This document shows, in pieces, positions 7,233-46,142 of a DNA stretch of 64,000 nt. The position numbers and the translations under genes were made by a program. The DNA is from Frankiales bacterium (GTDB taxonomy: Bacteria; Actinomycetota; Actinomycetes; JAFAQI01), in assembly GCA_025980465.1 (NCBI GenBank), contig JAICXJ010000001.1, positions 129,705 to 193,704 of the forward strand, given 5' to 3'. The first letter of the stretch is position 1; each line of letters starts with the position of its first letter. The notes beneath the pieces were generated by a model. The model was not told where the DNA came from and searched no databases. It saw only the letters and a list, made by a program, of their open reading frames with translations.

Positions 7233-7961
7233 TCAGGCGGTGGCGACCAGCTCGACGAAGTCGCCGAACTGCGGCTTGAGCAAGGTCACGTACTGGTCGT
7301 CGGTCGACGAGACCGCCGCTGCTGCCTCGCGGACGGTGTCGGCGGACGCCGAGGGCAGCAGCCACCAGCGAGCCTCGGCCCACGGCCTGCCATCACCGAT
7401 CACCACGCCTTCGACGTCGAAGATCGCCAGCGGTACCGCGCCGTCGATCGCGAGTGCCGGCGTACCGGGGTCAGTGACCACCTGCAGGACGAGGTGCGAC
7501 TTCGCGGCGTCCGCGACGTCGAGCACTGCGCGGTTGATCGAGTCCGGCTGAGGGAACGTGGCGGCGCAGATCGTCGAAGCCATGCCGGCGTCCTTGTGAA
7601 TGTGTGCGTCCTGGAACTCCGGCGTCGCGTTCATCTCCGCAAGCGCGTTGCGATACGGGTACTTGACCACTGCGACGCGGTCCCAACGCGGTGACGCGCC
7701 CACCGGCTGGTCGACGACGATCGCCACGATGGCGAGAGAGCCACCGATCTTCGCGATCGGCTCGATCGGACTGTAGAGGTTGTCGGCTTCCCAGCCGCTG
7801 AGGTCGGACTCGCGGCCGTCGGGATAGTCGGCCTTCTCGCGGTAGTGCATCAGGTTGAGCGCCCACATCGGCTCGTCACGCGACGCGTCGGCCCAGGTGG
7901 CGATGTAGTCGAGGTCCATCGTTCCGTAGCGCGGCTGGGGTCGGTGTGCCATCTCGGTCAT
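7233..7961 (-). CDS. Hypothetical protein, last gene of the sulfatase/transporter operon
   Basis: A 242-residue cytosolic protein with no recognised catalytic motif. The block MWALNLMHYREKADYPDGRE followed by a strand-rich IGGSLAIVAIVVDQP segment resembles DUF1330/dimeric alpha-beta-barrel proteins, possibly two such units. I treat that as a weak guess. The ATG overlaps the stop of the sulfatase/DJ-1 gene (ATGA at 7961-7958), indicating translational coupling and a shared role. Confidence 0.6.
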   Translation of the reverse strand: MTEMAHRPQPRYGTMDLDYIATWADASRDEPMWALNLMHYREKADYPDGRESDLSGWEADNLYSPIEPIAKIGGSLAIVAIVVDQPVGASPRWDRVAVVKYPYRNALAEMNATPEFQDAHIHKDAGMASTICAATFPQPDSINRAVLDVADAAKSHLVLQVVTDPGTPALAIDGAVPLAIFDVEGVVIGDGRPWAEARWWLLPSASADTVREAAAAVSSTDDQYVTLLKPQFGDFVELVATA

Positions 7962-10543
7962 CGGTTCGCCTTCGTTGTGTCGGTTTCGCGGCGAGTGAGT
8001 AGCCGCATCATCTCGTGCGCGACCATCGGGCCGGCGTTCTGGTTCTGGCCGGTGACGAGGTTGCCGTCGGTGACCCAGTGGTTCGCCAGCGGATCGCGGA
8101 ACCGGGTCGCGTTCTCGAACAATGCGCCGCGGCGTCGCAGCTCGGTCTCCGGGTGGTACGGGGTCGCCGTGATCCGCAGCTCGCGCACCTGCTTGTCGGT
8201 CACGGCGCTGATCCGTCGGCCCTCGACCAAAGGCGAGCCGTCCGGCGCGGTGGCGTTGACCAGCCCGAGCGGCCCGTGGCAGACCCCGCCGATGACGAGG
8301 TCGGCGGCGGCGGCCGCGGTCATCGCGTCAGCGAGCTCGGTCGAGGTGGCGAAGTCGAACGCGGCACCCCAGCCGCCCGCGAGGAAGACGGCGTCGTAGG
8401 AGGTGACGTCGATGTCGCTGATCGCAAGTGAGTGCTCGAGCCGGTCCTGCAGCTCTGCGTCGGCGAGGTACCGGTCGTCGGTCGCAGCGCGAATCACCGG
8501 CCGCAGCGACATCGGATCGACCGGAATCACACCGCCTCGCGGGCTGGCGACATCGACGGTCATCCCGGCATCGAGGAAGGCGTAGTACGGCGCCGTCATC
8601 TCCGAGGCGAACACCCCGGTCGCCTTGCCGGGCTGAAGCGTTCCGTGGTTGGTGCACACGATGAGTGCATGCCGGCCGCCGAGAGCGAAGCCACTCGGCT
8701 CGGTGCGATCCGGATGCATGCCGGCTCGCTGGAGGAGTCTGCGCAGGAGTCGTGCGGGGGGAGGTGGCTGTCGCAGCGCGACGTCGGAGAGCTTGCTGGT
8801 GACGTATGGCCACGGGTTGTGTCGCTCTGGGACGCCGGCGTGGCGCTCTTCCTTGAGCCGAGCCGTGAGATGAAGGAACACGTCGCGACACGACTCGTCG
8901 GTTGCCCGGTTCGACGCCTCGGTCGGATCGGCCTCGAGGTCGTAGAGCTCCCACTCGTCGGGTAGCGGGTCGCGGCGCAGCTGAAGCCCACCGATCCCGT
9001 TCGCCGCAACGTGCTTCACGCCGGGCGTGGTCCAGGTCGCCGGATCATCGAAGGTGCGGACCAGTTTCCACAGATGACCGCCGGCCCCGGCCGCCTCGTC
9101 GTCGCTGACGCGTACGACGATGCCCTCGAAGTTGCTCGCCGTGTGGGCCGGCAACTGCATCCGCAGCGGCGGGGGAGGGTTGGTGTCGCGGCCGAGCCGG
9201 CGGGCGAGTGCCGAGGCGCCGCTGTCGCCCTCGAGGATGTTGTCGCGGGTCATCAGGTAGACCGCGCGCTGCGGGTCGGCGTCCCCGCCGCTGACGATCG
9301 GCATCAGGTTGCGGCCCGGCAGCGGGTGGACCTCGGTGAAGTCACGGCGAAGCTCGGCAGCAACCGCGTCCTCGTCGATCCCCGCCGCGGCAAGCAGCGT
9401 CGGCACTATGTCGACGTGCGACGAGGGCGCCGCGATCGTTCGAGGCGCCGTGGGTGCGGAGCCGACTCGCGCGATGAACAACGGGATGCGGGTCGACTCG
9501 TCGTAGAGGTTGAACCACTTCTGGTGCAGCCCGCCGTGCGACCCCAGCATCTCGCCGTGGTCCGAGGTCCTGACGATGACGGTCTCGGTGGTGGCACCCT
9601 CCGTGACCGCCCGCCTCACCCGCTCGAGCGGAGCATCGACCTCAGCGTGGAGCCGGTAGTAGAGGTTGCGATAGTCCTGCGCGCCGCGCCGGTACATGCG
9701 CGAGATGGCCATCGGCGGACCGTATGCCGAGGGATACGCGGCCCGGAACGCGACCTGGGCGGCCGGCTTGCCCAGCAGGCGCTCGTGGTCGGTGGGTGAC
9801 TCCGGCACATCGGGCGGGTCGAGCAGCGACGGCGCGATCGGGTTGCGCCGTCGCCAGGCCGGAAACAGCACGATGTCGTGCGGGTTGACGAAGCTGACGA
9901 CCAGCAGGAATGGTCGCGCTGCTTCCGGATCGCCGGCAGCGCGCCGGGCGTATCGATCGGTGACCCAGGCGACCACCCGGTCCGCGATGAGCGGGTCGCG
10001 TCGCAGGCCGCTGTCGCCGATCGCGCCGCCGTGCGGCTCCGGTCCGACCCAGCCGGAGAACCCATACGGCGCGAGCGGGTCGGCGTCGAGGTAGGCCGTG
10101 ACGTTGCCCGGGATGACGGTGCCGTCGGAGGTATTGGTCCGCAGCGGCCGGCTGGTGGCCGGGTCGATGAGGTCGGCATGACTGATGTGCCACTTGCCGT
10201 CGTAGTGGGTGTCGTAGCCGGCCGCCCGAAACCAGTTGCCAAGGGTCGGCACCTCACCCGGCGGCAGCCATCGCATCCGCGAGTCGCTCGCGGTCTTGCC
10301 CAGCCCGTCGGTCTGGGTCACGCCATGCAGATCCGGGTAGTGGCCGGTGAAGATCGTCGGCCGGCTCGGCACGCAGGCGAGGGATCCGGTGTAGTGCCTG
10401 GTGAAACTCACCGCGTTGTCACGGAACCACTTCGTGCTGACCAGCGTTCGGTCCCGCCACGCCCGGAGTTCCGCCGATTCGTAGGACGGCGCCGCGCGCT
10501 CCTCGTCGGTGAGGATGACGACGACGTCGGGACGCTCGGTCAT
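7958..10543 (-). CDS. Sulfatase fused to C-terminal DJ-1/PfpI (type 1 GATase-like) domain
   Basis: An 861-residue protein. Residues 1 to about 600 are an alkaline-phosphatase-fold sulfatase: metal ligands in VVVILTDEE (Asp13/Glu14), the CVPSR signature with Cys57 as the formylglycine precursor, then GKWHIS and SDHGEMLGSHG. From about residue 617 a complete DJ-1/PfpI domain follows, beginning HALIVCTNHG and carrying the nucleophile elbow GGVCHGPLGL (Cys near 753). The open frame extends upstream to 10945, but that part is low-complexity Arg/Gly/Pro overlapping the real SRPBCC gene; ATG 10543 overlaps that gene's TGA (ATGA). Sulfatases hydrolyse sulfate esters after Cys oxidation by FGE, encoded at 20584. 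DJ-1-type domains act as hydrolases, glyoxalases or chaperones. The role of this fusion is unknown. Confidence 0.9.
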   Translation of the reverse strand: MTERPDVVVILTDEERAAPSYESAELRAWRDRTLVSTKWFRDNAVSFTRHYTGSLACVPSRPTIFTGHYPDLHGVTQTDGLGKTASDSRMRWLPPGEVPTLGNWFRAAGYDTHYDGKWHISHADLIDPATSRPLRTNTSDGTVIPGNVTAYLDADPLAPYGFSGWVGPEPHGGAIGDSGLRRDPLIADRVVAWVTDRYARRAAGDPEAARPFLLVVSFVNPHDIVLFPAWRRRNPIAPSLLDPPDVPESPTDHERLLGKPAAQVAFRAAYPSAYGPPMAISRMYRRGAQDYRNLYYRLHAEVDAPLERVRRAVTEGATTETVIVRTSDHGEMLGSHGGLHQKWFNLYDESTRIPLFIARVGSAPTAPRTIAAPSSHVDIVPTLLAAAGIDEDAVAAELRRDFTEVHPLPGRNLMPIVSGGDADPQRAVYLMTRDNILEGDSGASALARRLGRDTNPPPPLRMQLPAHTASNFEGIVVRVSDDEAAGAGGHLWKLVRTFDDPATWTTPGVKHVAANGIGGLQLRRDPLPDEWELYDLEADPTEASNRATDESCRDVFLHLTARLKEERHAGVPERHNPWPYVTSKLSDVALRQPPPPARLLRRLLQRAGMHPDRTEPSGFALGGRHALIVCTNHGTLQPGKATGVFASEMTAPYYAFLDAGMTVDVASPRGGVIPVDPMSLRPVIRAATDDRYLADAELQDRLEHSLAISDIDVTSYDAVFLAGGWGAAFDFATSTELADAMTAAAAADLVIGGVCHGPLGLVNATAPDGSPLVEGRRISAVTDKQVRELRITATPYHPETELRRRGALFENATRFRDPLANHWVTDGNLVTGQNQNAGPMVAHEMMRLLTRRETDTTKANR

Positions 10544-10998
10544 CGGTGCACCTTCCCTGCAGTTGTATCGACGTGCTTCGCGAGGCCCGCGAGCATCTGC
10601 TGATCCGCCTTTGCCAGCTGGCGAGCGAGGACCCGAGCGACGATCCGCCCGGGGGGGCCGGGCAGCGGCTCGATCGTCGTCGTCAGGGTGGTACGAGTCC
10701 GCCCCCCGGCCGGTTGGAGCTGCCAGCGATTGACGACGGTGCCGGCCTGCGGCGGAAGGCCGGCCAGCCGGTAGGCGAGTGCCACGTCGGGGGCCCACTC
10801 GGTGACCGTCTCGAGGACGGCGATCCGCCCGACCTGCACCCGGCGTACCGCGCCGACGCCGGCGCGGACGTCGCTCGCCCAGACGGAGTGATCGCAGTTC
10901 GGCGCCCAGTCCGCGATCGCGGCGAAGTCGGCCAGCGCCCACCACACCGCGCTCGGTGAGGCGTTGATCACCAACGACTTCTCGACGGTCACGGTCAC
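10540..10998 (-). CDS. SRPBCC (polyketide cyclase/START-like) family protein
   Basis: A 152-residue protein starting VTVTVEKSLVINASPSAVWW, the typical SRPBCC N-terminal strand and helix, followed by the WALADFAAIADWAPNC segment. The C-terminal helix ARVLARQLAKADQQMLAGL closes the hydrophobic cavity seen in this fold. GTG 10998 has GGAGG about 5 nt upstream and overlaps the TGA of the MBL gene (GTGA). Its own TGA overlaps the sulfatase start. The fold binds hydrophobic ligands, so a lipid- or aromatic-carrier or cyclase role in this operon is plausible. Confidence 0.85.
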   Translation of the reverse strand: MTVTVEKSLVINASPSAVWWALADFAAIADWAPNCDHSVWASDVRAGVGAVRRVQVGRIAVLETVTEWAPDVALAYRLAGLPPQAGTVVNRWQLQPAGGRTRTTLTTTIEPLPGPPGRIVARVLARQLAKADQQMLAGLAKHVDTTAGKVHR

Positions 10999-11840
10999 GT
11001 CCGCCTCCCCGGCGATCCGATGCGCACTGTGTGCAGGTCGTCTCCGAGCTCGATCCGGCCGTCGAAGTGGGCGGTCGCCCGAGCCCGCCACTCCGGCTCG
11101 TCGGCGGAGGTCAGGGCGGGCACGTAGTGGGTCAGTACGAGAGTCGAGGCGCCGGCACGGGATGCCGTCTGCGCCGCTTCCTCGACCGAGGAGTGGTAGT
11201 CGACGACGTCTCGAAGCCGCTGGATCGGCGCTTCGACGAGCAGGTCCTTTCTCAGCACGGTGTGCACGATCGCGTCCGCTCCGGCGCACAGCGCGTCCAG
11301 GCCGGAGCAAGGAACGGTGTCACCGGCGACAACGACGGCGTGCTCGCCCGCGTCGATGCGGAAGCCAACCGATGGCCTGACCGGCCGGTGATCGGTCGCC
11401 GCTGCGGTGACGGTGGCGTCGGCGGTCGTGAAGCACACGCCCTCGATGAACTCGCGCACCTCCACGGGTGGTTCCCAGCTGAGGTCGGCGTGATGGTCGA
11501 GCCGGTAACAGACGTCCTGCCGCAGCATCGCGACGATCCCATCCACTACCTCGCGCACACCAGGAGGTCCGATGATGACGAGGGGGCTGGGCGCGAAGCT
11601 GGTGACCCACCGGCTGGTGATCACGTCGTTGAGGTCGGTGATGTGGTCGCTGTGCAGATGGGTGATGAGGACAGCGTCGATCATTCCCGCTGTGACGCCG
11701 ACGGCTGCCGCCCGCATCAGGACACCTCGTCCGGTGTCGACCAGCAGCCGGGTTCCACCGACCTGGACCAAAGTCGCCGGTCCGGCGCGGTGGGGATCGG
11801 GCAGCGGAGACCCGGTGCCCAGCAGGACGATCTCGATCAC
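10995..11840 (-). CDS. MBL-fold hydrolase, RNase Z/AtsA-like
   Basis: A 281-residue metallo-beta-lactamase-fold protein with no signal peptide. The metal-binding HLHSDHITDLND motif follows an N-terminal LLGTGSPLPDPHRAG segment as in RNase Z-type enzymes. Further ligands are likely Asp in VVAGDTVP and the C-terminal His in LVLTHYVPAL. The GTG at 11840 has AAGGAG upstream. The same RNase Z-like branch includes arylsulfatases of the AtsA type; because it sits in a sulfatase operon a sulfatase or lactonase role is more likely than tRNA processing (inference). It lies 9 bp after the exported protein gene. Confidence 0.85.
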   Translation of the reverse strand: MIEIVLLGTGSPLPDPHRAGPATLVQVGGTRLLVDTGRGVLMRAAAVGVTAGMIDAVLITHLHSDHITDLNDVITSRWVTSFAPSPLVIIGPPGVREVVDGIVAMLRQDVCYRLDHHADLSWEPPVEVREFIEGVCFTTADATVTAAATDHRPVRPSVGFRIDAGEHAVVVAGDTVPCSGLDALCAGADAIVHTVLRKDLLVEAPIQRLRDVVDYHSSVEEAAQTASRAGASTLVLTHYVPALTSADEPEWRARATAHFDGRIELGDDLHTVRIGSPGRRT

Positions 11841-11849
11841 GGGACTCCT

Positions 11850-12857
11850 TCAGATCGCCGGTGGGGGACCGTGGCGAGGAGCGCGGAACCGTCCCACTCC
11901 CGCAACCGTTGCGCGCGGGCGACGTTCGGTGCCGCTGACCCACGCGGTGATGACGATGAGGGCGACCAGGCCGCCGATCGCGGCGGTGCGGGTGCGGCTG
12001 TCATCGATCGGTGTCACCGCGTTCGTCAGTGCCTGCGGGGAGGTCGTGACCTGGCTCGCGACCTGCGGCGCGGCGGCAGGTGCAGGAGGAACGCTGGGAG
12101 TCGTTACCGGCAGGATCGGTCCCCCGGGCAGCGGTGGGGAGGAGATGGCGACGTGACTCGTCGCAGGTGACGGCGACGGTGGCGGATTGCTCCGCGACGC
12201 CGGCTGGCTGAAGTCGAGCAGGCTCAACGCCGCTTTGGTCGGCGGCCGGAAGACCAACCGTTCGAAGCCGAGGCTGCCGGGCAGGATGACGAGCGAGAGG
12301 GTGTGACCGGTGAGCAGTCGCCCGATCCCAGGAAACACGATCGAGGTGCGGTCGAGTGAGAGTTGACCGATCGCTGAGCTGTTCGTGCAGTCATAGCCAG
12401 GCGCCGCCGAGAACGGCTGTTCGAGGCCGGGCCGGAAGCGGCGGGTTGTGGCGCACGCGATCGGTGTTGCTCCGCTCGGCAGTTTCGCATCGAGCTTCGC
12501 CGTCGTCAGGCCGGTCAGGCCAAGCGACAGGCTTGCCGGAGTGGCACCGCTCGGGATCCGGAACGACAGTGCCGTGAGCGCCGTGATCTGGTGAAACGGT
12601 GGCAGCGGTGGCAGCGGAATCGGCAGTTGCGAGGCGTCGAGGGTGAGGCCCTGAACCAGCAGGTCTTTGCGGCCGACTCCGGGCGTTGGCGCGGCCGGCG
12701 TCGACGCCGTCGGGCGGGCTTCGTCGTACCACGCCACCACTGCTGGGCCGATGTGCTTGGGAATCCGCGAGGCGCGCGCCGGCTCAGCAAGCGCCGGGGT
12801 AGCGGCGAGGAGGGCGAGGCCGAGCACCGCCCCGGCGACTGCGGCTCGGCGGATCAT
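11850..12857 (-). CDS. Exported, C-terminally anchored protein of unknown function
   Basis: A 335-residue protein. An N-terminal signal peptide (MIRRAAVAGAVLGLALLAAT then PALA) is followed by an extracytoplasmic domain with two Cys (CATT, YDC). A Pro/Ser/Thr/Ala-rich linker covers about 225-290, a single TM helix (IGGLVALIVITAWVS) lies near 296-312, and a basic tail ends it. No known domain is recognised. The ATG overlaps the transporter stop (ATGA). A second transporter set at 39-46 kb also includes an exported protein with the same signal/linker/C-terminal TM plan, so these may be accessory receptors or scaffolds for the fused ABC transporters (inference). Confidence 0.7.
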   Translation of the reverse strand: MIRRAAVAGAVLGLALLAATPALAEPARASRIPKHIGPAVVAWYDEARPTASTPAAPTPGVGRKDLLVQGLTLDASQLPIPLPPLPPFHQITALTALSFRIPSGATPASLSLGLTGLTTAKLDAKLPSGATPIACATTRRFRPGLEQPFSAAPGYDCTNSSAIGQLSLDRTSIVFPGIGRLLTGHTLSLVILPGSLGFERLVFRPPTKAALSLLDFSQPASRSNPPPSPSPATSHVAISSPPLPGGPILPVTTPSVPPAPAAAPQVASQVTTSPQALTNAVTPIDDSRTRTAAIGGLVALIVITAWVSGTERRPRATVAGVGRFRAPRHGPPPAI

Positions 12858-15800
12858 CTCGCACCCACTCGAAGAGCAGTTGAGTGGTTGCGGCCCGATC
12901 GGTTCCGTGCTGCATCGTCCGTGCCGAGGTAGCTGGCGATCACCTGTGGATCGCTGAGCACATCCTGCGGTGAGCCTGACACCACGACCCGGCCCTGCTC
13001 GAGGGCAAGTAGCCGATCGCTGACCGCGCAGATCAGTGGCATGTCGTGCTCGATGACCAGCAACGCGCAGTCGGCTTCGTCGCGGATTCGATGCAGCAGC
13101 GGGCCGAGCGCTTCCGCCTCTCGTTGTGCGATGCCGCTGCTCGGCTCGTCGAGCAGCAGCACTTTCGGGTCGTACGCCAGAGCCATGGCTAGGTCGGCGA
13201 TCCGGCGGGTGCCGGTCGACAGCTCGCGCGCCAACTTGTCGCGGTAGGCGCCGAGCGAGAGCAACTCGATCAGGTCGGTGACGGTCCAGGCGATGTGCCG
13301 CTCGGCTTCCGCCACGTCGGGAAGGGCGAGTGCGGCGGCGAGATGGTCGTGGACGTCGAGGTGGCGTTCGAGCGCGACCGCGATGTTCTCGGCGACCGTG
13401 AGGCTGCCGAAGATCCGAGCGTCCTGGAACGACCGTCCGAGGCCGAGCCGTCCGCGAGCATCCGGACCGAACGCCGTGACGTCGAGACCGAGGAAGCTGA
13501 CCCGCCCCTGCGAGGGCCGGAGGAAGCCGCTGACCAGGTCGAACACCGTGGTCTTGCCGGCACCGTTCGGCCCGATCAGGCCGAGGATCTCCCGCCCGTG
13601 CAGTGTGAAGGAGACGTCATGCACCGCGCGCACACCACCGAAGGACACCGCGATGTCGTTGACCCGCAGCACCTCACCGGCGAGCTCTGGCGAAGCCGAC
13701 CGAGCGGCGGGCACCGCGGCCCGAACCGGCTCGGTGAGGAAGACCGAGCGGACGATGTCGTCGCGCTCGAGCAACTCCACTGTCGAGCCCTCGAAGCGCA
13801 CCTCGCCCTTCTCCATGAAGTAGGCGCGGTCAGCGATGGTCAAGGCGACGTTCAGGGACTGCTCGACCAGGATCACGGTCGTTCCCTCGGCATTGAGCTG
13901 CCGGACGACCTCGAGTAGCCGCTCGACGACTGTGGGGGCAAGGCCGAGCGAGAGCTCGTCGATGATCAGCAGGGTCGGGCGGGTGATGAACGCCATACTC
14001 ACCGCGAGTTGTTGCGCCTCGCCGCCGGAGAGATTTCCCGCAAGGGTGTCCCACTTCGTCGCGAGGTGGGGGAAGGACGCCAGCGCCTGGGCCTGGGCGG
14101 CATCGGCATCGGCCGCGTGCCGGCCGGAGCGGGTCCAACGAGCCGCGCGGAAATGATCCGCGACCGTCACGGTCGGAAAGATCCCCTTGCCGCCCGGGAC
14201 CTGCGCGATGCCGCTGCTGCACCGCTGGACGGCGGCGGTGCGCGCGATATCCGTGCCGCGATAGTGGATCGTGCCGCTCCAGGCTGGGGTGAGGCCACTG
14301 ATCGCCCGAAGCAAGGTCGACTTACCGGCCCCGTTGGTGCCGAGCAGCGCCAAGACCTCGCCCTGTCGCACGTGCAGGTCGACGTTGAACAGCACCTGCA
14401 CCCCGTCGTACCCGACGTCGAGGCCGCGGCAGACCAGTAGTGCGTTCTCCGGTGGGTCGTCGAGGTGTGACCGCTCGATGCCGATGGTGGCGACTCCGCC
14501 CCGCACATCACTGTCGAGCCGGTCGGCGGTCAGGCTCGGCAGTTCCATCCCGCGTCGATGAGCCACCCAGCGCAGGAAGCGATCACGGATCGCGACGCCG
14601 GTCGCGGCGATGCCGCCGGGGAAGAAGGCCAAGACGATCAGTACGCCGCTGGCGAGTCCGAGCTCGTCGATGACGGCGAGCAGGCTGTGCAGCCCGATGT
14701 GGTTGAGGAAGCTGAAGATGGTCGGCCCGAAGTAGCGCAGCGACTCGTATGCGATGGCGCCGAGCACCGCGCCGTACGGGCTCGCGATCCCGCCCACGAT
14801 CGCGAAGACGAAGACGTCGATGCTCATCTGCAGGGGGAACGTCGTCGAGTCGATGGCGCCGACCTGGTAGCCGTACAGCGCGCCGGCGACGGCAGCCATT
14901 GCACCGGAAAGGGCGAAGGCCGCGATTCTTGTTCGCGCCGAGTTGACGCCGAGTGCCTGGGCGTTGCGCAGGTTGTCGCGCTGCGCGACGAACACCCGCC
15001 CGGATCGGCTGGCGCGCAGCCGCCGCGCCGATCCGACGAACAGCAGCAGGATTGCCAGACATAGGTAATAGAACGCATGGTCGCCGGTCGCGTCGAACCG
15101 GCCGAACAAGATCGGACGCTCGATCGTCTGGCCGTCCTTCGGCAGCAGCCAGCCGAAGTAGCGGGGATCGAGGACCCATAGTTGGACGAGCGCAGCGAAG
15201 GCGAGCGTGACGACGGCGAGGAACAGCCCGGGCAGCCGAAGCGCCGGGATGCCGATCAGCGCCGCGACGAGGGCGCCGACGGCAGCTGCCACTACCAACG
15301 TCACGAAGAAGTCGGCGTGGGCGCGGGTAGCGAGCCCGCCGGCGACCGCCGCGCCGACACCTGCAATGCCGAACTGACCCAGCGAGACCTGGCCGGCCCA
15401 GCCGGTGAGGAGGGTGAGGGAGAGCGCGACCATCGCCGCCAGCGCGATGAGGGTCAGGAACCCGAGTCGCGACGATCCCACGATGTACGGCGCCAGAACG
15501 AGGAAGGCGAGGCCGGCTGACCGTGCGCCTCGACCGGCCCAGACCACCTCGGGCAGGCGTCGTAGCTGCGTCGGGATCGGCCTGGTCTCGGCGAAGGTCT
15601 GGAAGCTCGAGATGCCGGTGTCAAACGCGCGCGTGACCCGCCGTCTCCCGAGCAGGGCCACCAAGATGATTGGAAGCACCAGCGCAGCCGGAAGGTTCGG
15701 GTTGTTCGAGGAGTAGTACGCGGCGCGGTCGAGCATGCCCAGCCCGATACCGGCCACGAGTGCGGTCGGTAGGTCGTCAAACCGCGCGATGACCGCGGCC

Positions 15801-16558
15801 GCCAGCGGGAAGAGCAGCAGCGCCGGGTCGACATCGGATCCCAGTGACTGCCCGACGACCGCGATCTTCAGGAACGCCGAGGCAGCGGACAGCACGCCCG
15901 CCAGCACCCACACCAGGACTGCCATCCGGCGTACCGGGATACCGAGCAGCAGCGCCCGGTCGGCGTTGTCGGCGGCCGCACGCACCGCAAGTCCGGTCCG
16001 GCTGACCCGGAAGAAGACCGAGAGCCCGATCGACACGACAGCCGCGACCACGATGATGGCCAGGTAGTCGCCGGTGAGCACGACCTGGCCGATCGAGAGG
16101 TGCAGTTTCGAAAACGGCGTCGGCAGCTGGGTCGCTCCGAGCACGGTGCTTCCGAACAGCGAGGGCAGCACCACCTCGCCGACGACGAGGATCTGCCCGA
16201 CACCGATTGTTGCCACCGTGAGCACCAGCCGCGACTTGGTGGCGAACCGGCGCAGCAGGGTCCGCTGCGCGACCGCACCGAGCAGTCCGCCGCTGGCGAG
16301 CGCGACCACGACACCGACGAGGTACGGCAGGTGCGCCTGCGTGATGACAAGCAGACCGAGGACTGCGCCGCTACCGCCGAGCGCGGCCTGCGCGAAGTTG
16401 ATGATCCGCTGCGCTCGGTAGACCAGGATCAGTCCGAACGCGGGTAGCGAGTACAGCAGACCGAAGATCGCACCCTCGACGAGGTTGCCGAACGGCACCC
16501 GGAAGATCAGCTCGGCAGCGAGCGCAATGGCTCCAAGCGCGAGGATGCGCTTGATCAT
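12854..16558 (-). CDS. Four-domain fused ABC transporter (LivH-LivM-LivF-LivG in one chain)
   Basis: A single uninterrupted 1234-residue frame holds an entire branched-chain-amino-acid-type (HAAT) importer core. A LivH-like permease spans about 1-330 (RIINFAQAALG, GLAVRAAADNADRALLLGIP). A LivM-like permease spans about 345-665 (GWAGQVSLGQFGIAGVGAAV, SGAMAAVAGALYGY). A LivF-like ATPase spans about 704-935 (Walker A GTNGAGKST, signature LSGGEAQQ, Walker B LLIIDELSLGL). A LivG-like ATPase spans about 963-1205 (Walker A GPNGAGKTT, signature-like LSTGTRRI, Walker B LLLDEPSSG). ATG 16558 overlaps the binding-protein TGA (ATGA); the open frame upstream of it is out-of-register sequence of that gene. 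Normally these are four separate proteins. Transport is inferred; the substrate is unlikely to be an amino acid given the sulfatase operon. Confidence 0.93.
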   Translation of the reverse strand: MIKRILALGAIALAAELIFRVPFGNLVEGAIFGLLYSLPAFGLILVYRAQRIINFAQAALGGSGAVLGLLVITQAHLPYLVGVVVALASGGLLGAVAQRTLLRRFATKSRLVLTVATIGVGQILVVGEVVLPSLFGSTVLGATQLPTPFSKLHLSIGQVVLTGDYLAIIVVAAVVSIGLSVFFRVSRTGLAVRAAADNADRALLLGIPVRRMAVLVWVLAGVLSAASAFLKIAVVGQSLGSDVDPALLLFPLAAAVIARFDDLPTALVAGIGLGMLDRAAYYSSNNPNLPAALVLPIILVALLGRRRVTRAFDTGISSFQTFAETRPIPTQLRRLPEVVWAGRGARSAGLAFLVLAPYIVGSSRLGFLTLIALAAMVALSLTLLTGWAGQVSLGQFGIAGVGAAVAGGLATRAHADFFVTLVVAAAVGALVAALIGIPALRLPGLFLAVVTLAFAALVQLWVLDPRYFGWLLPKDGQTIERPILFGRFDATGDHAFYYLCLAILLLFVGSARRLRASRSGRVFVAQRDNLRNAQALGVNSARTRIAAFALSGAMAAVAGALYGYQVGAIDSTTFPLQMSIDVFVFAIVGGIASPYGAVLGAIAYESLRYFGPTIFSFLNHIGLHSLLAVIDELGLASGVLIVLAFFPGGIAATGVAIRDRFLRWVAHRRGMELPSLTADRLDSDVRGGVATIGIERSHLDDPPENALLVCRGLDVGYDGVQVLFNVDLHVRQGEVLALLGTNGAGKSTLLRAISGLTPAWSGTIHYRGTDIARTAAVQRCSSGIAQVPGGKGIFPTVTVADHFRAARWTRSGRHAADADAAQAQALASFPHLATKWDTLAGNLSGGEAQQLAVSMAFITRPTLLIIDELSLGLAPTVVERLLEVVRQLNAEGTTVILVEQSLNVALTIADRAYFMEKGEVRFEGSTVELLERDDIVRSVFLTEPVRAAVPAARSASPELAGEVLRVNDIAVSFGGVRAVHDVSFTLHGREILGLIGPNGAGKTTVFDLVSGFLRPSQGRVSFLGLDVTAFGPDARGRLGLGRSFQDARIFGSLTVAENIAVALERHLDVHDHLAAALALPDVAEAERHIAWTVTDLIELLSLGAYRDKLARELSTGTRRIADLAMALAYDPKVLLLDEPSSGIAQREAEALGPLLHRIRDEADCALLVIEHDMPLICAVSDRLLALEQGRVVVSGSPQDVLSDPQVIASYLGTDDAARNRSGRNHSTALRVGAR

Positions 16559-18228
16559 CGGCCGGGGATGCGGAAGGTCGTGGCGGGGAACTGGCCGAGG
16601 GTGTAGCGGCGGCCGGCGTTCAAGGCGACGTAGCTGCCCGCCTTGCCGTTGATGGGGCTGCGCTTGGTCGGGTCCCAGAAGACGATCCGCGCGTCCGAAA
16701 CCGCAGTGAAGTCGCCCGCGCCGAACTTGATCAGCGAGTGGTAGCGCGTCCCACCCCACGCCGGCAGGCTCAGCACCGCTCGTTCGAAGGTGACCGGGTT
16801 GAGATTGGCGCCCGCTTGCTGGAGGCCGGCAGCCAGCACCGAGAAGAAGCCTTGGATGTTGTCGGCACTCGTGAACGGCCCGAAGGCGCCCTTGGTGGAC
16901 CGATAGACGGCGCCGGCGTCGTAGTGGCTCGGGGTTGACATGTCGGGAAGGTCACCGAGGCCGAAGGCATTTTTCCACTGCGACTTGCTGTAGAGCTGGG
17001 CGAGCGCGTCGAAGTCGGAGTAGCCACCACCGGTGATGACGTTCTCCGGGTAGTAGTTCTGCTGCGTCATCTGCTGGGTGAGGAACACCGGCAGCACCGG
17101 ATCGGTGAAGTAGATGATCGTCGTGATCCCGCTCTGCTTCGCCTGCGAGGCGAGCGTCGTCGACTGCACGACGGCCTGGCTGGTGTCAGGTGAGAACGTC
17201 TTGATCACGGCGCCCCCGCCGTGATCGCAGCCGTTGATGATCGAGGCGAGATGCTGCGCCGCCTCGACGTGTTCCGGGGTGTCGTCGACCAGCACTTCCG
17301 CGGTGCGCCGCTTCGACCGCAGCGAGGCCTCGCCGGCGTAGATCGCGTCGCGGTGCGCGAGCTGCTTGCAGTACCACTCGCCGGTGATCTCAGCTTGGGT
17401 GTCGCCGTCCATGTCGTAGTCGAAGTGGTACGGCGCCTGCCCGGTGTCGTAGCTCAGCGGCATCCCCGCGGCGCCGAAGTTCGTCACACCGAGATGTGAG
17501 AGCTCGGCGTTGAACCCTGGTGCGGTGAGATTGCGCGGGAAGACGACAGCGAACGGGTGGTACTTGGAGACGACGGTCTGCGCATCCTGGCGGAAGCACG
17601 CGTCACTCGGCGGTGAGGCCTCGCACGATTGGCTGATGTAGTCGTCGATGTGGATGCTGCGCCCGTACAGCTCGTAGCGCGCGTTGATGAAGCTGGTCTC
17701 TCGTGCCAGGAAGTCATTGATCTGGGACGCGCTCGGCGCCAGACCTGCCGGGCCGAGAATCGCCTTGAGGGCCAGGCTCTGCTCCGGCTGGTAGTAGACG
17801 ATTTCGATCTGACTGTTGGTGATCCCACGGGCTGTTGCGCCGCCGTTGTTGCCGGTGAAGGTTGGCTGGCACGCAGGCGCGGCGGCGAACCCAGGCACGG
17901 CGAACTGCCGGCCGCCCGTGCAGTGCGCCGTGCTCCCGCTGGCGGTCTGGCCGCCGCCCGCCCGGCTCGTCCCGCCCGTTGACGAACCGCCCGATCGGCC
18001 CGAACCGTTGAGCGACGATGCGCCGGTCGCGGGTCCGTGCTGGCCCGGCGCCGTACCGGTCGAGGAGGTAGCCGTCGGGATCGAGCCCGACGTGGAGCCA
18101 CCGGCACTCGTCGGGCCGGTGGCGTAGTTCGGGACCGTGGTGGAGGCGCCCTTAGACGGCGCGACGATCACGAGAAGCAGCAGCGCCGCGGCAATGATCA
18201 GCGCAGGCGCGTAGCGACGGATCGGCAC
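16555..18228 (-). CDS. Membrane-anchored HAAT-type solute-binding protein
   Basis: A 557-residue protein, first gene of the seven-gene run. An N-terminal TM helix (ALIIAAALLLLVIVA) lacks a lipobox Cys, so it is probably an uncleaved anchor. A Gly/Ser/Thr-rich linker follows to about residue 110. From about 130 a periplasmic-binding fold type I (LivJ-like) domain runs to the end, with GNNGGATARGITNSQIEIVY at its start and QQNYYPENVITGGGYSDFD later. GTG 18228 has GAGG upstream. Known LivJ-like proteins are soluble or lipoproteins; tethering by a TM plus flexible linker is unusual. It would feed the fused permease encoded next. Confidence 0.88.
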   Translation of the reverse strand: MPIRRYAPALIIAAALLLLVIVAPSKGASTTVPNYATGPTSAGGSTSGSIPTATSSTGTAPGQHGPATGASSLNGSGRSGGSSTGGTSRAGGGQTASGSTAHCTGGRQFAVPGFAAAPACQPTFTGNNGGATARGITNSQIEIVYYQPEQSLALKAILGPAGLAPSASQINDFLARETSFINARYELYGRSIHIDDYISQSCEASPPSDACFRQDAQTVVSKYHPFAVVFPRNLTAPGFNAELSHLGVTNFGAAGMPLSYDTGQAPYHFDYDMDGDTQAEITGEWYCKQLAHRDAIYAGEASLRSKRRTAEVLVDDTPEHVEAAQHLASIINGCDHGGGAVIKTFSPDTSQAVVQSTTLASQAKQSGITTIIYFTDPVLPVFLTQQMTQQNYYPENVITGGGYSDFDALAQLYSKSQWKNAFGLGDLPDMSTPSHYDAGAVYRSTKGAFGPFTSADNIQGFFSVLAAGLQQAGANLNPVTFERAVLSLPAWGGTRYHSLIKFGAGDFTAVSDARIVFWDPTKRSPINGKAGSYVALNAGRRYTLGQFPATTFRIPGR

Positions 18229-18311: not shown

Positions 18312-20567
18312 GTGTCAAGCCTCGATCACTTCGACGGAGTCATCGGCCGGACTCACACCGAGTCGACGCCTTCCTGGCCGAGCCGAGCAGTGCCCGAAGG
18401 GTCCCCGAATGTCGTGGTGATCGTGCTCGACGACACCGGCTTTGCCCAGCTCGGCTGCTACGGGTCGAGCATCTCCACGCCGAATATCGACCGACTCGCC
18501 GCCGGCGGACTTCGCTACAGCAACTTCCATGTGACGCCGCTGTGCTCGCCCACCAGGGCCGCCCTGCTGACCGGGCTCAACCACCACACCGCTGGGATGC
18601 GTGCGGTCGCGAACTTCAACACCGGTTTCCCCAACATGCGCGGGCACATCACCAACCATGCCGTGACGATGGGGGAGGTGCTGCGACAAGACGGATACGC
18701 GACGTTTGCGGTCGGCAAGTGGCACCTGTGTCCCGCGATCGACTCCTCCGCCGCGGGCCCGTACGACCAGTGGCCGTGCCAGCGGGGGTTCGACCGGTTC
18801 TACGGCTTCCTCGAAGGCGAGACCGACCAGTTCCACCCCGACCTGGTCTATGACAACCACCGGATCTCACCGCCGGCGACCGCGGAGGAGGGCTACCACC
18901 TCTCGGAGGATCTGGTCGATCGCTCGATCGAGTTCGTGCACGACTCGGTGTCGGTGCGTCCGGACCGGCCGTTCTTCCTCTACCTCGCCTTCGGTGCTAC
19001 TCATGCACCGCACCAGGCGCCCGCGGTGTACCTCGAAAAGTACCGGGGCGCCTTCGACGCCGGCTGGGACGCGATCCGCGACGACTGGTTCGCGCGGCAG
19101 AAGGAGCTCGGCGTTGTGCCCGAAGGCACCGACCTCGCGCCACGCAACCCGGGCGTCGAGCCCTGGGACTCGCTGTCCACGGTGCAGCAACGGCTTGCCT
19201 GTCGGCTGCAGGAGGCGTTTGCCGCCTTCCTCGACCACACCGACGCGCAGATCGGTCGGCTGGTCGAGGACCTTGACACACTCGGCCTGCTCGACAACAC
19301 GCTGATCATGCTGGTGTCGGACAACGGGGCGTCGCAGGAGGGCGGACCATTCGGCGTACTGCACGAGATGAAGTTCTTCAACGGCATCCTCGAGACCCCG
19401 GAGGAGGCGATCGAGCGGCTCGATGAGATCGGCGGTCCGAACAGCCACTCCAACTACCCCTGGGGCTGGGCGCAGGCGGGCAACACACCGTTCAAGTGGT
19501 ACAAGCAGAACACCCATGAAGGCGGCGTCCACGTGCCATTCATCGTGCAATGGCCGGGACACATCGCCGACCCGGGCGGGATCCGTCACCAGTTCCATCA
19601 CGTCAACGACATCGCGCCGGCGGTGTACGAGGCGGTGGGCGTGACACCGCCGTCGTCGTACCGCGGTTACGACCAGATCCCGATCAGCGGCACCTCCTTG
19701 CTCTACACGATGTCGGCGCCTGACGAGCCGACTCGCAAGCACGTGCAGTACTTCGAGATGGGTGGGCACCGCGGCATCTGGATCGACGGCTGGAAGGCGG
19801 TCACTCGCCATACCCAGAACGTGCCGTACGACGAGGACACCTGGGAGCTCTACAACGTGAGCACGGACTTCTCCGAGTGTCACGACCTCGCGGGCGCCGA
19901 GCCGGGAAAGCTCCAGGAACTGGTCGATCGCTGGTGGAGCGAGGCGAAGACCCATGGCGTGCTTCCGCTCGACGACCGGCTGGTGGAGCTGTTCGCAGCG
20001 AGGTATGCCGATCACACGCCGCACGCGCCGTCACGGCGCTACGTCTACAAGCCGCCGATGGCGGCGTTGCCGGCTCAGGTGGGTGCGACGCTCGGTGGCC
20101 GGGGCTGGTCGATGACAGCGCGCATGACTCGCGACGGCAGCGACGGCGGAGTGTTGTTCGCGACCGGCACCGCGAACGCCGGGCTGTCGCTTTTCGTCGA
20201 GGACGGTCGGCTGGTTTTGGACTACAACGCCTTCGGTCACCACACGTTGCTGGAGTCGGACACCGAGTTGCCGACAGGGTCTGTGACCGCGGAGGTTCGG
20301 TTTGCTCGCGCCGGTGGCGAAGGCGACTTCGAGATGTACGTCGACCGCCGGCCGGTTGGGTCGGCGCATGTCCCGCTGGCGATGCGCTTCATGTCGAGCA
20401 TCGGTCACAGCATCGGCTTCGACAACGGATCGCCGGTCAGCTCACGGTATACGGGGGCCAATCCCTTCACCGGCGAGCTGCACGAGATCGAGATCGTGCT
20501 CGCCGGCGGAAAGCCCGATGCCGCTGACGCCGTAGCCGCGCAGGCGGCTGCGATGGCTCAGCAATAG
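18312..20567 (+). CDS. Arylsulfatase (type I, formylglycine-dependent)
   Basis: A 751-residue cytosolic sulfatase without signal peptide. The opening FDGVIGRTHTESTPSWP and VVIVLDDTGFAQLGCYG (metal Asp40/Asp41) match long bacterial arylsulfatases. The CSPTR signature gives Cys78 as the formylglycine precursor, with TGLNHH after it, then VGKWHL and SDNGASQEGG. The C-terminal third is a beta-rich domain (GWSMTARMTRDGSDGGVLFA) usual in this long class. GTG 18312 is chosen because conserved sequence starts there and no room is left upstream. FGE follows 16 bp later, so the two are very likely co-transcribed. The esters hydrolysed are unknown. Confidence 0.93.
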   Translation: MSSLDHFDGVIGRTHTESTPSWPSRAVPEGSPNVVVIVLDDTGFAQLGCYGSSISTPNIDRLAAGGLRYSNFHVTPLCSPTRAALLTGLNHHTAGMRAVANFNTGFPNMRGHITNHAVTMGEVLRQDGYATFAVGKWHLCPAIDSSAAGPYDQWPCQRGFDRFYGFLEGETDQFHPDLVYDNHRISPPATAEEGYHLSEDLVDRSIEFVHDSVSVRPDRPFFLYLAFGATHAPHQAPAVYLEKYRGAFDAGWDAIRDDWFARQKELGVVPEGTDLAPRNPGVEPWDSLSTVQQRLACRLQEAFAAFLDHTDAQIGRLVEDLDTLGLLDNTLIMLVSDNGASQEGGPFGVLHEMKFFNGILETPEEAIERLDEIGGPNSHSNYPWGWAQAGNTPFKWYKQNTHEGGVHVPFIVQWPGHIADPGGIRHQFHHVNDIAPAVYEAVGVTPPSSYRGYDQIPISGTSLLYTMSAPDEPTRKHVQYFEMGGHRGIWIDGWKAVTRHTQNVPYDEDTWELYNVSTDFSECHDLAGAEPGKLQELVDRWWSEAKTHGVLPLDDRLVELFAARYADHTPHAPSRRYVYKPPMAALPAQVGATLGGRGWSMTARMTRDGSDGGVLFATGTANAGLSLFVEDGRLVLDYNAFGHHTLLESDTELPTGSVTAEVRFARAGGEGDFEMYVDRRPVGSAHVPLAMRFMSSIGHSIGFDNGSPVSSRYTGANPFTGELHEIEIVLAGGKPDAADAVAAQAAAMAQQ

Positions 20568-20583: not shown

Positions 20584-21462
20584 GTGAGCTGTTGCCTCCC
20601 GGGCGCTTCCGACGGATCGCACGTCGTCGCGGCCTCGCCGGTCGTCGGTGGCGGATCCCGGCGCGATGCACTGTCGCTGCCCGGCGGCGAGTTCCTGATG
20701 GGGGACGACGGCCCGCTCAGCTATCCCGAGGATGGCGAGGGACCGGTCCGACGCGAGTCGGTCGACGGCTTCGCGATCGATCGCTACGCCGTCACGGTTG
20801 CGGACTTCACCGGCTTCGTCGACGCGACCGGATACCTGACTGACGCGGAGCGACTCGGGCGGTCATTCGTCTTCGCCGGACTCTTGCCGCAGGACTTTCC
20901 GCCGACCCGTGGTGTGGAGGCGGCACCCTGGTGGCGCGAGGTCCTCGGGGCGACCTGGCGGGCGCCGGAGGGTCCCGGCAGCTCGGCGGCGGACCGCCGT
21001 GACCATCCGGTCGTCCATGTGTCGTGGAACGACGCGCATGCCTTTGCGTCGTGGTGCGGAGGCCGGCTTCCGAGCGAGGCCGAATGGGAGTACGCCGCCC
21101 GTGCCGGAGCGTCATCGACGTTTCCATGGGGCGAGGAACTCGAGCCGGGCGGGCGTCACATGGCGAATGTCTGGCAAGGCACCTTTCCCGACGCGAACAG
21201 CTGCGACGACGGGTACTACGCGACGTGCCCGGTCACTGCGTTTGAGCCGAACGGCTTCGGCTTGTACAACCTGATCGGCAACGTGTGGGAGTGGACCGCG
21301 AGCCCGTTCACTGCCCAGGTCACGCATGGTTTCGAGCTCGCACTCAAGGGCGGCTCGTACCTGTGCCACGCGTCGTACTGCCATCGCTACCGGCCAGCCG
21401 CCCGAAGCGGCGCCGCGGCGGACTCCTCGACCGGAAACGTCGGCTTTCGGTGCGCGTACTAG
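20584..21462 (+). CDS. Formylglycine-generating enzyme (sulfatase maturase, SUMF1-type)
   Basis: A 292-residue FGE that oxidises the sulfatase Cys in CxPSR/CxPTR to formylglycine using copper and oxygen. The N-terminal MSCCLPG is typical of actinobacterial FGEs. The core shows GGEFLMGDD, HPVVHVSWNDAHAFASWCGG, RLPSEAEWEYAARAG and NLIGNVWEWTA. The active-site Cys pair is Cys261 and Cys266 in GGSYLCHASYCHRYRPAAR, and the protein ends GFRCAY. It follows an arylsulfatase by 16 bp and would also mature the CVPSR sulfatase of the divergent operon. Confidence 0.96.
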   Translation: MSCCLPGASDGSHVVAASPVVGGGSRRDALSLPGGEFLMGDDGPLSYPEDGEGPVRRESVDGFAIDRYAVTVADFTGFVDATGYLTDAERLGRSFVFAGLLPQDFPPTRGVEAAPWWREVLGATWRAPEGPGSSAADRRDHPVVHVSWNDAHAFASWCGGRLPSEAEWEYAARAGASSTFPWGEELEPGGRHMANVWQGTFPDANSCDDGYYATCPVTAFEPNGFGLYNLIGNVWEWTASPFTAQVTHGFELALKGGSYLCHASYCHRYRPAARSGAAADSSTGNVGFRCAY

Positions 21463-31774: not shown

Positions 31775-32658
31775 TAGGTCCTCCGGGTCCGCGCCGCCGG
31801 CATCCATTCGGTGCCGGCAGTCTCGTCGATGCGGGCAAGCAGTCGGGCACCGACCGGCTCGACGAGATCGAGGAACTCGACCGTTCGTGGCTCACCGAGC
31901 CGCCGCCAGGCGCGCTCGCTCAATTCGTCGGTGCGGTCCTCGATGCGTTGCCGCAGTGCCAGCCCGGCCGCGTTGACCTCGCCAGCTGCGGCCAGGCCGC
32001 GGGCCTCGAGGTCGGCCATCGCCGCCCGCAGCGCATCGTCGTCGGAGCCGCGGCTACGCGGGATCCAGTGCTGTGGATAGTTCAGCTGCGCGTTATGAAG
32101 GATGCCGGCCTGAACCGCCGAGATGTCCTCGGCGGCGAGGATCGCGAAGTGGGTGTCGCCACGCCACTCCCGAATGCAGTTGACGGCGAGCCACGCCGAC
32201 AGCAGCGGGTCGTTGGTGGGCCGAGGCCGCTGCCGATGGGCGGCGAACAGCACCCGCCCGGACACCGGCAGCGCATCGGCCGCCTCCCACAACGCCGGGC
32301 CGAGTGCGGCAAGTCCGTCGCAGATCTCCGGCACGTAGTGCCGCAGACCGGCCGACACGGCGAAGTCTCGTGCCTGCTGTAGCGCCCCGTAGGTCGTCTC
32401 TTGCTCGGCGAGCTCGAGTGAGGCCTGGATGAACGGCGGCGAGATCGAATAGAAGGCGGCGCAGACCGCCTCATGGCCGGCCGGCGCGAGTGGTGCGCCG
32501 CGGCTGACGATGTAGCTAATCCCGCCGACGTCGATGCCGAGCCTGGCGTACTTCTCGAGGGCCAGCGGGTCCCAGTAGATCCAGCCAATCAGGCGGTGCG
32601 AGGCGAAGGACGCGCGCGCACTGAGCGCCCGCCAGTCGGGCGCCCGCTGGTCGCTCAC
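31774..32658 (-). CDS. SCO6745-family HTH-like protein
   Basis: A 294-residue cytosolic protein with ASHRLIGWIYWDPLALEKYA, SPPFIQASLEL and the WLAVNCIREWRGDTHFAIL block found in actinobacterial SCO6745-type proteins of unknown function. Its TAG overlaps the alkylsulfatase GTG (TAGTG), so it is in the same transcript. GTG 32658 follows AGGAACGACCGC. It might regulate or assist the alkylsulfatase; this is guesswork. Confidence 0.75.
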   Translation of the reverse strand: MSDQRAPDWRALSARASFASHRLIGWIYWDPLALEKYARLGIDVGGISYIVSRGAPLAPAGHEAVCAAFYSISPPFIQASLELAEQETTYGALQQARDFAVSAGLRHYVPEICDGLAALGPALWEAADALPVSGRVLFAAHRQRPRPTNDPLLSAWLAVNCIREWRGDTHFAILAAEDISAVQAGILHNAQLNYPQHWIPRSRGSDDDALRAAMADLEARGLAAAGEVNAAGLALRQRIEDRTDELSERAWRRLGEPRTVEFLDLVEPVGARLLARIDETAGTEWMPAARTRRT

Positions 32659-39015: not shown

Positions 39016-42000
39016 TCAGGACTTCGCGGCGGCGGTCTTCTTGCGCGGTGCCCGCTTCGCCGGCGCCTTCTTCGCGGTGGTGCCGGATCGGTCGATCGCG
39101 GCACCCTCGACGCCGAGGTAGGACTCGATCACTCGCGGATTCTCGAGCACGGACGTAGGCGCGCCCTCAGCGATCACTTCGCCCAGCTCCAGTGCCACCA
39201 GCCGGTCGCACAGCGAGGTGAGCAGTGGCATGTCGTGATCGATGACCAGCATCGTGCAGCCGGCGTCCTCACGGACCTGGCGGAGCAGCGGGCCGAGTGC
39301 CTCGCTCTCCCGTTGCGCGACGCCGGCGGTCGGCTCGTCGAGGAGGACAACCGCCGGGTCTTGGGCGAGCACGCAGGCGAGCTCGACGATGCGACGGGTG
39401 CCAGTGGACAGTGCGCCGATCTGGGACTCGCCGTACTTGTGCAGACCGAGCTTGTCGAGGAGTTCGTCGACCCGGACCGCGACCTCGAGCTCCGAGAGGG
39501 TCGAGGCCGGCAGTCGCAGTGCCGCAGCCACGAGGTCGCGTGAGGTGAGATGACGCTCGAGCGCCACCGCAACGGTTTCCTGCACCGTGAGCGCTGGATA
39601 CAGCCGCGCCTCCTGGAACGAGCGACCGAGGCCGAGGAACGCCCGGTCGGCGGGGGCGAGGTCGGTGACATCGGCGCCGCCGAGCAGCACGCGGCCGTGC
39701 TCGGGCCGCAGGAAGCCGCAGATCACGTCGAACAGGGTGGTCTTGCCGGCGCCGTTGTGTCCGATCAGGCCGAGGATCTCGCCCTTGTGCAACGACAGCT
39801 CGATGTCGTTGAGGACCCTGATGCCACCGAACGCCTTTCCGACGTAGACGCACTCAAGAACCGTCGGCGCTGCGACGATGTCGGCGATCGTGCGCGCCGT
39901 GCCGCCGTTGCTCTTGGCGGCGGCCGCGGCCCGCTTGCCTCCGCCGCCCACAGATCCACCATTGAGCTCGGGGGAGCTGACGTCGGCGGCATGGAGCTCG
40001 GCCGCCACCCCGGCCGCACCGTGGATGAAGACCGAGCGCAGAACGTCGTTTCGCTCGAGCAGGTCGGCGGTGTCGCCGCTGAACCGCACCGAACCGCGCT
40101 CCAGGAACACCGCCCGCTTCGCGACTTCGAGCGCGACGTTCACCGACTGCTCGACGATGACGATGGTGATGCCCTCGTCGACCAGTTCCTGTACGACGTC
40201 GAGCAGGCGGGACACCACGGTCGGGGCGAGGCCGAGCGACAGCTCGTCGATGAGCATCAGCTTGGGCGTCGTTCGCAACGCCATCGCCAGCGACAGCATC
40301 TGCTGCTGGCCGCCCGACATCGTGCCGGCGAGCTGGTTGTCGCGCTCACCGAGGGTCGGGAACAGGTCGATGACGCGGCTGCGGCTGCGGGTGAGGCTGG
40401 CGGTGTCCTTGCGGCTGAGCCAGGCCGCGACCCGGAGGTTCTCCCCGACCGTGAGGGACGGGAAGATCGACTTCGCCGGCATGAGTGTGAGACCGGCCTT
40501 GACCCGTTCCTGCGGGCTGAGCTTGGAGATGTCGCGACCGTGGTATCTGACCTCGCCAGGTGCCGCCGACATCAGGCCGGCAACGACCTTCAGCATCGTC
40601 GACTTGCCGGCGCCGTTCGTGCCGAGCAGAGCGACGACCTCGCCGTCGTTGACGTCGAGGTCCACGCCGAAGAGCACCTGCATCGCGCCGTAGCTGGTTT
40701 CGACATTGCGGCAGTGCAGCAGGGTGCCATCCGGGATCGCCGTGACCTGCTCGGGGACGATCGGCTCGGTGATATCGACATTGGATCCGGCCGCCGTCGC
40801 CACCAGGTCGATGCCGCGCCGATTCGCGACGAGGACCAGCAGCCGGTCTCGCACCCAGTTGACCGCGCCGATCAGACCACTCGGTAGCACCAGCAGGATG
40901 ATCAGCAGGCCGGTGCCGGTGATAAGCAGCTGGTACTGCGGATAGGTGTGGACGGCCAGCTCGACGGCACCCACGCCGAGCAGTGCACCGAAGATCGAGT
41001 CGACACCGCCGATGATCAGCATCGAGAAGACGAGCAGGCTCTCCGACGGCGGGTAGGTGCCGAAGCCAACCGCTTGCAGGATCGTGGCGTGAAGCCCGCC
41101 CGCGATCCCCGCGATCGCGCCGGAGGTCACGAAGCTGAGGAGCGTGACGCGGGTGGTCGGCACTGCCATCGCGGCGGCGGCCCGTGGATTGTCCCGGGTG
41201 GCGACCATGACCCGGCCGGGCCTGGCCCGCCGGATGCCACGAACGAACACGATGACGAACAGCAGGAAACCGAGACACAGGTAGTACAGCGGTCGCTCGC
41301 TTTGCAGATCGAACCGCTTCCACAGGACCGGGCGGGTGATGGTGCCGGGGATCAGCGAGTTGAAGTTGACCGGGTTGAGGAAGAACGCGTCCATCGCCAC
41401 CGCGAGCGCCATGGTCGTCACGGCGAGGAACAGCCCGCGCATCCGCAGCGCCGGCACACCGACGAGTACGGCGAGGAAGGCCCCGGCTACCCCGGAAGCG
41501 ATCAGGCAGATGAACAGGTCGAGATTGAAATGGTTCAACAGGTCGCCGGTGAGGACAGCACCCAGCCCGACGAACGCGTACTGACCGAGGCTGACCTGGC
41601 CACCCCAGCCCGAAAGCACGACAAGCGAGACGGCGACGATTCCGTAGATCACCGTCGTACTGAAGATCTGGATCGTTGCCGGACTGGTGGTCAGCGGAAT
41701 CAGGATCGCCGCAGCGAGCAGGGCCAACGGGCCGCCGATCCGCATCGCGAGGACCTCGGGCAGGTTGCGCAGCACCGCCGGGATCTCGCGCGAGCCGCCG
41801 CCGGCGAGCGACAGGGTGGACTCCTCGGCGCCCTCACGTCGCCCGATCGGTCCGCGGTTGAGCACCAGCGCGACCAGGATGATGATCAGGAACGCGACGG
41901 TCGTCACCGACTGCTTGTTGAAGTTCCAGCCGATCAGCGAGTTCAGGATGCCGAGGCCGATACCGGCGACGACGGCGATCGGCAGTGACTCCATGCCGGC

Positions 42001-45966: not shown

Positions 45967-46142
45967 CTGACTCCCGTCCGCGCCCGGGATGTGCCGTGCG
46001 TCACAGCGATCCGTCACCATAGGAGGGTCGATCCGCGTGCGGCAAGGGTGGTACGCACGATTCCCAAGAGGACGAATGTGGTTCGACCGGCCGATACTGG
46101 CCGGCAGGCCTTCCAGCGTGCGTTGTCGAAGGATGGTTCGGT

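Follow-up and report, generated by a model that had tools for sequence, protein, structure and literature searches.

The importer gene and its neighbors

The window, i.e., the whole stretch of 64,000 nucleotides analyzed here, contains at positions 12854..16558 the gene HMFG1, which encodes a four-domain importer core of 1234 aa. HMFG1 lies on the minus strand, a detail missing from the first-pass annotation of this DNA, starts with an ATG at 16558, stops with a TGA at 12856-12854, has zero internal stops, and overlaps its neighbors SBP1 and SEC as ATGA at either end. The coordinates claimed in that annotation are correct, searches with Pfam and NCBIfam confirm its domain order LivH-LivM-LivF-LivG in one 1234-residue frame, and its statement that the ATPases are placed after the permeases is borne out as well (H, about residues 24-325; M, 335-695; F, 703-945; G, 960-1222). 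As it had expected, Pfam recognizes two BPD_transp_2 domains (PF02653, 1.4e-51) and two ABC_tran domains (PF00005, 1.2e-54), and in addition a LivG-type tail, BCA_ABC_TP_C, at residues 1190-1216. On motif inspection, both Walker A/B pairs are intact, as had been stated, and this holds across the F and G sets of fused and unfused relatives. The signature motifs of HMFG1 are LSGGE in F and LSTGT in G; among fused and unfused relatives, the F set carries LSGGE/LSGGQ together with a Gln in the H-loop and the G set carries LSTGT/LSTGS together with a His H-loop.

When the domains of HMFG1 are scored singly, H is matched best by the NCBIfam model UrtB, M by UrtC/LivM, F by UrtE/LivF, and G by LivG/UrtD, and none of the four domains reaches a curated Liv or Urt equivalog cut-off, each of them being far below those of UrtB, C, D, and E by which UrtABCDE is recognized. 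The whole chain passes the UrtD and UrtE cut-offs solely by a summed score, because its two ATPases add up; these passes vanish once the ATPases are scored one at a time, and a urea transporter identity was rejected on these grounds. The characters of the HAAT family are present in HMFG1, i.e., two PF02653 permease domains, distinct LivF- and LivG-type ATPases, and, by profile comparison, a Peripla_BP_6-type (type I) binding protein as partner.

The first-pass annotation had named sulfatase genes as the operon partners. Sulfatase genes do occur nearby, but the closest partner is SBP1 (16555..18228, minus strand, 557 aa), a Peripla_BP_6/LivK-type binding protein whose gene overlaps the importer start as ATGA. 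The notion that sulfatases replace the usual partners is not upheld, given this LivK-type neighbor and a sulfatase link that is limited to close relatives of the window. Although SBP1 has no significant match in Pfam, its fold is, judged from profile comparison, of the Peripla_BP_6 type, since its family aligns with that of SBP2a, the binding protein of a second system, with an hhalign probability of 100% (E 2e-69). SBP1 has an N-terminal hydrophobic segment with no evident lipobox Cys and a Gly/Ser/Thr-rich linker, and an AlphaFold2 model built with six sequences has a pLDDT of 39. At the other end of HMFG1, SEC (11850..12857, minus strand), which overlaps the importer stop as ATGA, encodes a putative secreted, C-terminally membrane-anchored protein that by inspection shows a signal-like N-terminus, a Pro-rich region, and a C-terminal hydrophobic segment. 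SEC is kept downstream of HMFG in loci L001, L110, and L011.

The second system, also on the minus strand, consists of HMFG2 (39016..42810), a four-domain importer core of 1264 aa that belongs to a different clade from HMFG1, SBP2a (42807..44507; Peripla_BP_6, PF13458, 1e-11), and a gene at 44521..46020 for a secreted, anchored accessory protein without any Pfam hit. This last gene is conserved beside other HMFG2-type loci and was considered as a second binding protein (SBP2b), a role that was rejected since the sequence points to a product that is secreted and anchored; no match was obtained between its profile and that of SEC. By inspection, SBP1 (16555-18228) and SBP2a (42807-44507) share an apparent N-terminal helix anchor and a long Gly/Ser/Thr-rich linker rather than being lipoproteins.

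A sulfate-ester theme is evident near HMFG1, comprising two sulfatases, a formylglycine-generating enzyme (FGE), and an arylsulfatase-like hydrolase. Beyond SEC, the packed minus-strand run continues with a metallo-beta-lactamase-fold hydrolase (10995..11840; PF12706), arylsulfatase/RNase Z-like, whose best PDB relative is 8gyg, named "Arysulfatase" (3e-25), and whose NCBIfam family name, above cut-off, is ribonuclease Z. It is followed by an SRPBCC/Polyketide_cyc2 protein (10540..10998; PF10604, 3e-21; the start is uncertain, 10998 or 10992), by a fusion of an S1-type sulfatase with a DJ-1/PfpI domain (7958..10543; 861 aa; CVPSR signature; PF00884, 3e-43, and PF01965, 3e-11), and, as last gene of the run, by one for an uncharacterized 242-aa protein with no Pfam hit (7233..7961). 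On the plus strand, a divergent arylsulfatase (18312..20567; 751 aa; CSPTR signature; PF00884, 6e-66), whose nearest PDB relatives are the arylsulfatases 4cxk/1hdh, precedes the gene for the sulfatase activator FGE (20584..21462; PF03781, 1e-71), which matches the formylglycine-generating enzyme 8aru in PDB (2.6e-90) and has the cysteine pair of the CHASYC motif in the alignment. Farther away, the window encodes on the minus strand (30509-31807) a metallo-beta-lactamase protein with an alkyl-sulfatase dimerization domain, by its sequence possibly another sulfate-ester enzyme.

Close relatives of HMFG1 retain much of this gene arrangement. An orthologue of the sulfatase-DJ-1 fusion is present in exactly those genomes of the family that possess HMFG1, i.e., the window and three relatives (4 of 12), and the sulfatase linkage is confined to them. 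The divergent sulfatase is found at 74-76% in both HMFG1 relatives whose contigs extend that far, the contig of the third ending inside SBP1 and so not covering the position. FGE, adjacent in the window, is absent next to the importer locus in L110 and L123, and L004, L005, and L011, fused relatives with 55% identity, encode no sulfatase in the flanks examined.

Predicted transport function and substrate

Judged from its domains and motifs, HMFG1 is very probably the core of a binding protein-dependent importer within one chain, with a predicted function in transport. The substrate is the least certain part of our reading. As the likeliest single proposal, tentatively held, a sulfate ester would enter the cell intact, to be cleaved by the linked sulfatases once in the cytoplasm. 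No obvious signal peptide was seen when the N-termini of the sulfatases were inspected, which suggests that desulfation after import is favored. Arylsulfatase genes linked with an ABC importer also occur in Pseudomonas. We know of no organosulfates as an established substrate class of the HAAT family. As no sulfatase lies in the examined flanks of L004, L005, and L011, the substrate link is clade-specific, and it may amount only to co-inheritance as a block.

HMFG1 might instead be a conventional importer of branched-chain or hydrophobic amino acids with incidental sulfatase neighbors, which we consider possible but rather unlikely. The closest characterized domain families, Liv and Urt, and the fused relatives that lack sulfatases in the flanks examined would agree with it. 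However, the failure of all four domains at the Liv and Urt equivalog cut-offs, the location of sulfatase genes in the same packed run, their co-occurrence with the importer in the family, and the lack of adjoining genes for amino acid metabolism argue against an amino acid substrate. Unlikely as well is a reading in which the sulfatases act at some other step of the pathway and HMFG1 imports a desulfated product or a different metabolite of lipid-like or aromatic nature; the SRPBCC lipid-binding-type protein and the uncharacterized proteins in the run would fit such a substrate, but sulfatases without obvious signal peptide favor desulfation after import.

With regard to its mode of action, HMFG1 would supply all membrane and ATPase parts of the core in a binding protein-dependent importer of the HAAT type (LivHMGF/Urt). 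SBP1, probably tethered via its N-terminal helix, would capture the solute outside and hand it over to the H-M permease pair, and F and G would form a single dimer of nucleotide-binding domains (NBDs) within one chain. In ABC transporters the NBDs dimerize head-to-tail, and from this family knowledge the pairing of motifs can be deduced, according to which one composite ATP site looks canonical and the other degenerate. ATP would be hydrolyzed mainly at the site made up of the G Walker motifs and the LSGGE signature of F, while the F Walker motifs, with Gln in the H-loop, and the LSTGT signature of G would make up the degenerate site. This asymmetry in motifs is shared with unfused relatives; it is therefore not caused by the fusion. 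Covalent linkage would fix a 1:1:1:1 ratio of the domains, in support of the earlier view that the fusion fixes stoichiometry, and would block subunit exchange with the several other HAAT-type systems of the genome.

The structure of the monomer, prediction of which had been suggested in the first-pass annotation, was modeled by AlphaFold2 for residues 24-1222 with 63 related sequences (pLDDT 89.0, pTM 0.90). According to this model, in which weak confidence is found chiefly at the linkers, HMFG1 is predicted to fold as one compact unit. In a fold search of PDB, good matches were obtained only with single-NBD chains and with the fused-NBD chains DppD and OppD from M. tuberculosis, the best structural match being DppD (TM-score 0.72 on target). 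No full-length fold match to HMFG1 was found in PDB, the TM-score on the query being at most 0.34, and sequence searches of PDB found no homologue of the permease domains.

In the relatives compared, the M-F linker contains no internal start that is both conserved and preceded by a plausible Shine-Dalgarno sequence, and a separate FG protein made from such a start was rejected. That activity requires proteolytic cleavage of the chain or a pair of domain-swapped chains, with the fusion serving assembly, seems very unlikely; the low model confidence and weak conservation of the M-F and F-G linkers would be compatible with it, but the pTM of the single-chain model and the absence of a conserved internal start speak for the intact chain.

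Spread and origin of the four-part fusion

The order H-M-F-G in a single frame was encountered at 44 distinct loci, a number far above what chance would give. Orthologues of HMFG1 with the same frame exist in three other assemblies (76-79% identity), and one four-part fusion is located in the single-contig genome G024, in whose family four of the five genomes encode such a fusion. The fusion is present in 5 of the 396 genomes of an even sample of the phylum and in 17/395 genomes of the class of G113, probably Acidimicrobiia; a search of plasmids yielded only partial matches. The fusion is not singular, as the host genome encodes three of them and there were several independent origins. A search for the same order, proposed in the first-pass annotation, revealed two further four-part fusions in the host genome, HMFG2 within the window and another outside it. 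The HAAT-type systems of this genome add up to one unfused, four of the type HM + G + F with G and F separate, and three HMFG.

In comparison with the three orthologues, dN/dS of HMFG1 is ~0.2 overall and within all four domains, i.e., HMFG1 is under purifying selection in each of them, and its linkers evolve more loosely than the domains, yet remain in frame. A joining of the coupled genes HM and FG by an assembly or frameshift artefact, a sequencing error of the kind that the first-pass annotation had named as able to refute its claim, could in principle result from one indel error, given that close two-gene relatives overlap as ATGA/GTGA, but its probability is negligible and a pseudogene is likewise ruled out in view of the identical frame in the three orthologues from independent assemblies, of the 44 loci, including a single-contig genome, whose linkers vary in length and stay in frame, and of the dN/dS value.

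The closest relatives of HMFG1 on the tree are two-gene systems consisting of HM and FG. In 55 of 60 two-gene systems, ATGA or GTGA terminates the HM gene and usually forms an overlap with the start of FG, so that one indel could fuse both genes. We propose that HM and FG, genes coupled in translation, fused repeatedly and thereby gave rise to the four-part chain. On a tree of the concatenated domains, the four-part state needs 4-5 changes, with at least 3-4 of them forced, some of which could be fissions rather than fusions. Forcing all fusions into one group costs 475 log-likelihood units in the AU test (p 2.4e-5) and 104 units (p 5.5e-6) are lost when the clade of the window is forced together with the two large fused clades, p values that are somewhat optimistic because the groups were chosen after inspection of the tree. 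A single origin is rejected by these tests, with the groups named once the tree had been seen. At the C-terminus of HM from several two-gene systems, L010, L012, L015, L016, L017, L020, L021, L022, and L079, a short C-x-x-C...H-x-H motif occurs that by its sequence resembles a zinc ribbon; it is not found in any M-F linker of the four-part fusions.

Taken together and leaving the substrate aside, a one-chain importer core that originated by repeated HM/FG fusion is quite probable. The wider statement, that in uncultured Actinomycetota a HAAT-type importer repeatedly collapsed to an asymmetric machine made of one chain and that HMFG1 imports intact organosulfates, is much less so as a whole and is offered as a conjecture.

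Comparison with known systems

Binding protein-dependent importers are textbook multi-subunit complexes, and in the Dassa-Bouige scheme IM and ABC parts of class 3 importers are independent polypeptides. HMFG1 departs from this usage with its continuous frame of 1234 codons that lacks a conserved internal start. In Brucella, IM and ABC proteins of HAA systems are listed separately (PMC2821768), and a structural classification from 2020 assigns single chains to types IV and V, not to the importer types I-III (Table 1; PMC8386196). No published description of a four-part HAAT fusion was found in the open-access literature, which is weak evidence of absence. As a second way to refute its claim, the first-pass annotation had named many well-described identical fusions of known substrate; for the 44 loci, neither description nor substrate was found. 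The four-part fusion is real, recurrent, and, as far as this literature shows, undescribed. In a HAAT core that occurs naturally as one chain and has two unlike ATPases, every half-site, every coupling contact, and the stoichiometry would become mutable within a single gene, and the graded series within one genome (unfused, HM fused, and HMFG) together with the repeated origin offers a clean setting in which to study why subunits become fused.

Single-chain transporters of types IV and V, such as P-glycoprotein, resemble HMFG1 in having two transmembrane domains (TMDs) and two NBDs per chain, but differ in the fold of the TMDs, in the order TMD-NBD-TMD-NBD, and in the absence of a binding protein. 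Membership in the type IV single chains was rejected, as matches of the P-glycoprotein type reach a TM-score of at most 0.34 at an rmsd above 19 A. The DppABCD and OppABCD systems of M. tuberculosis share with HMFG1 the presence of two importer NBDs in one chain (DppD or OppD, with TM-scores up to 0.72 on target), whereas their permeases are separate and of the peptide-transporter type.

LivHMGF of E. coli and UrtABCDE (TC 3.A.1.4) possess, like HMFG1, two BPD_transp_2 permeases, LivF- and LivG-type ATPases, and a type I periplasmic-binding-protein partner, but distribute the membrane and ATPase functions over four separate proteins that HMFG1 unites in one chain in the order H-M-F-G. The HM + MFS-F-G systems of Acidimicrobiia (L038, L042, L054, and others) contain H, M, F, and G domains homologous to those of HMFG1, but their ATPase gene begins with MFS_1, a domain that none of the four-part fusions carries. 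Such an N-terminal fusion of MFS_1 to the LivF-LivG ATPase pair beside an HM fusion was seen in 45 of the 45 HM + long-FG systems of Acidimicrobiia and relatives (e.g., L038:10004-12970, L042:9980-12970, and L054:10061-13039, in addition to 42 other loci), and the chain joins a secondary-transporter fold to importer ATPases. In the HM + FG systems of Actinomycetota (L010, L014, L025, and others), finally, the same domains occur in the same order as in HMFG1, but they are divided between two coupled genes, mostly with an ATGA/GTGA overlap, whereas HMFG1 is one gene.
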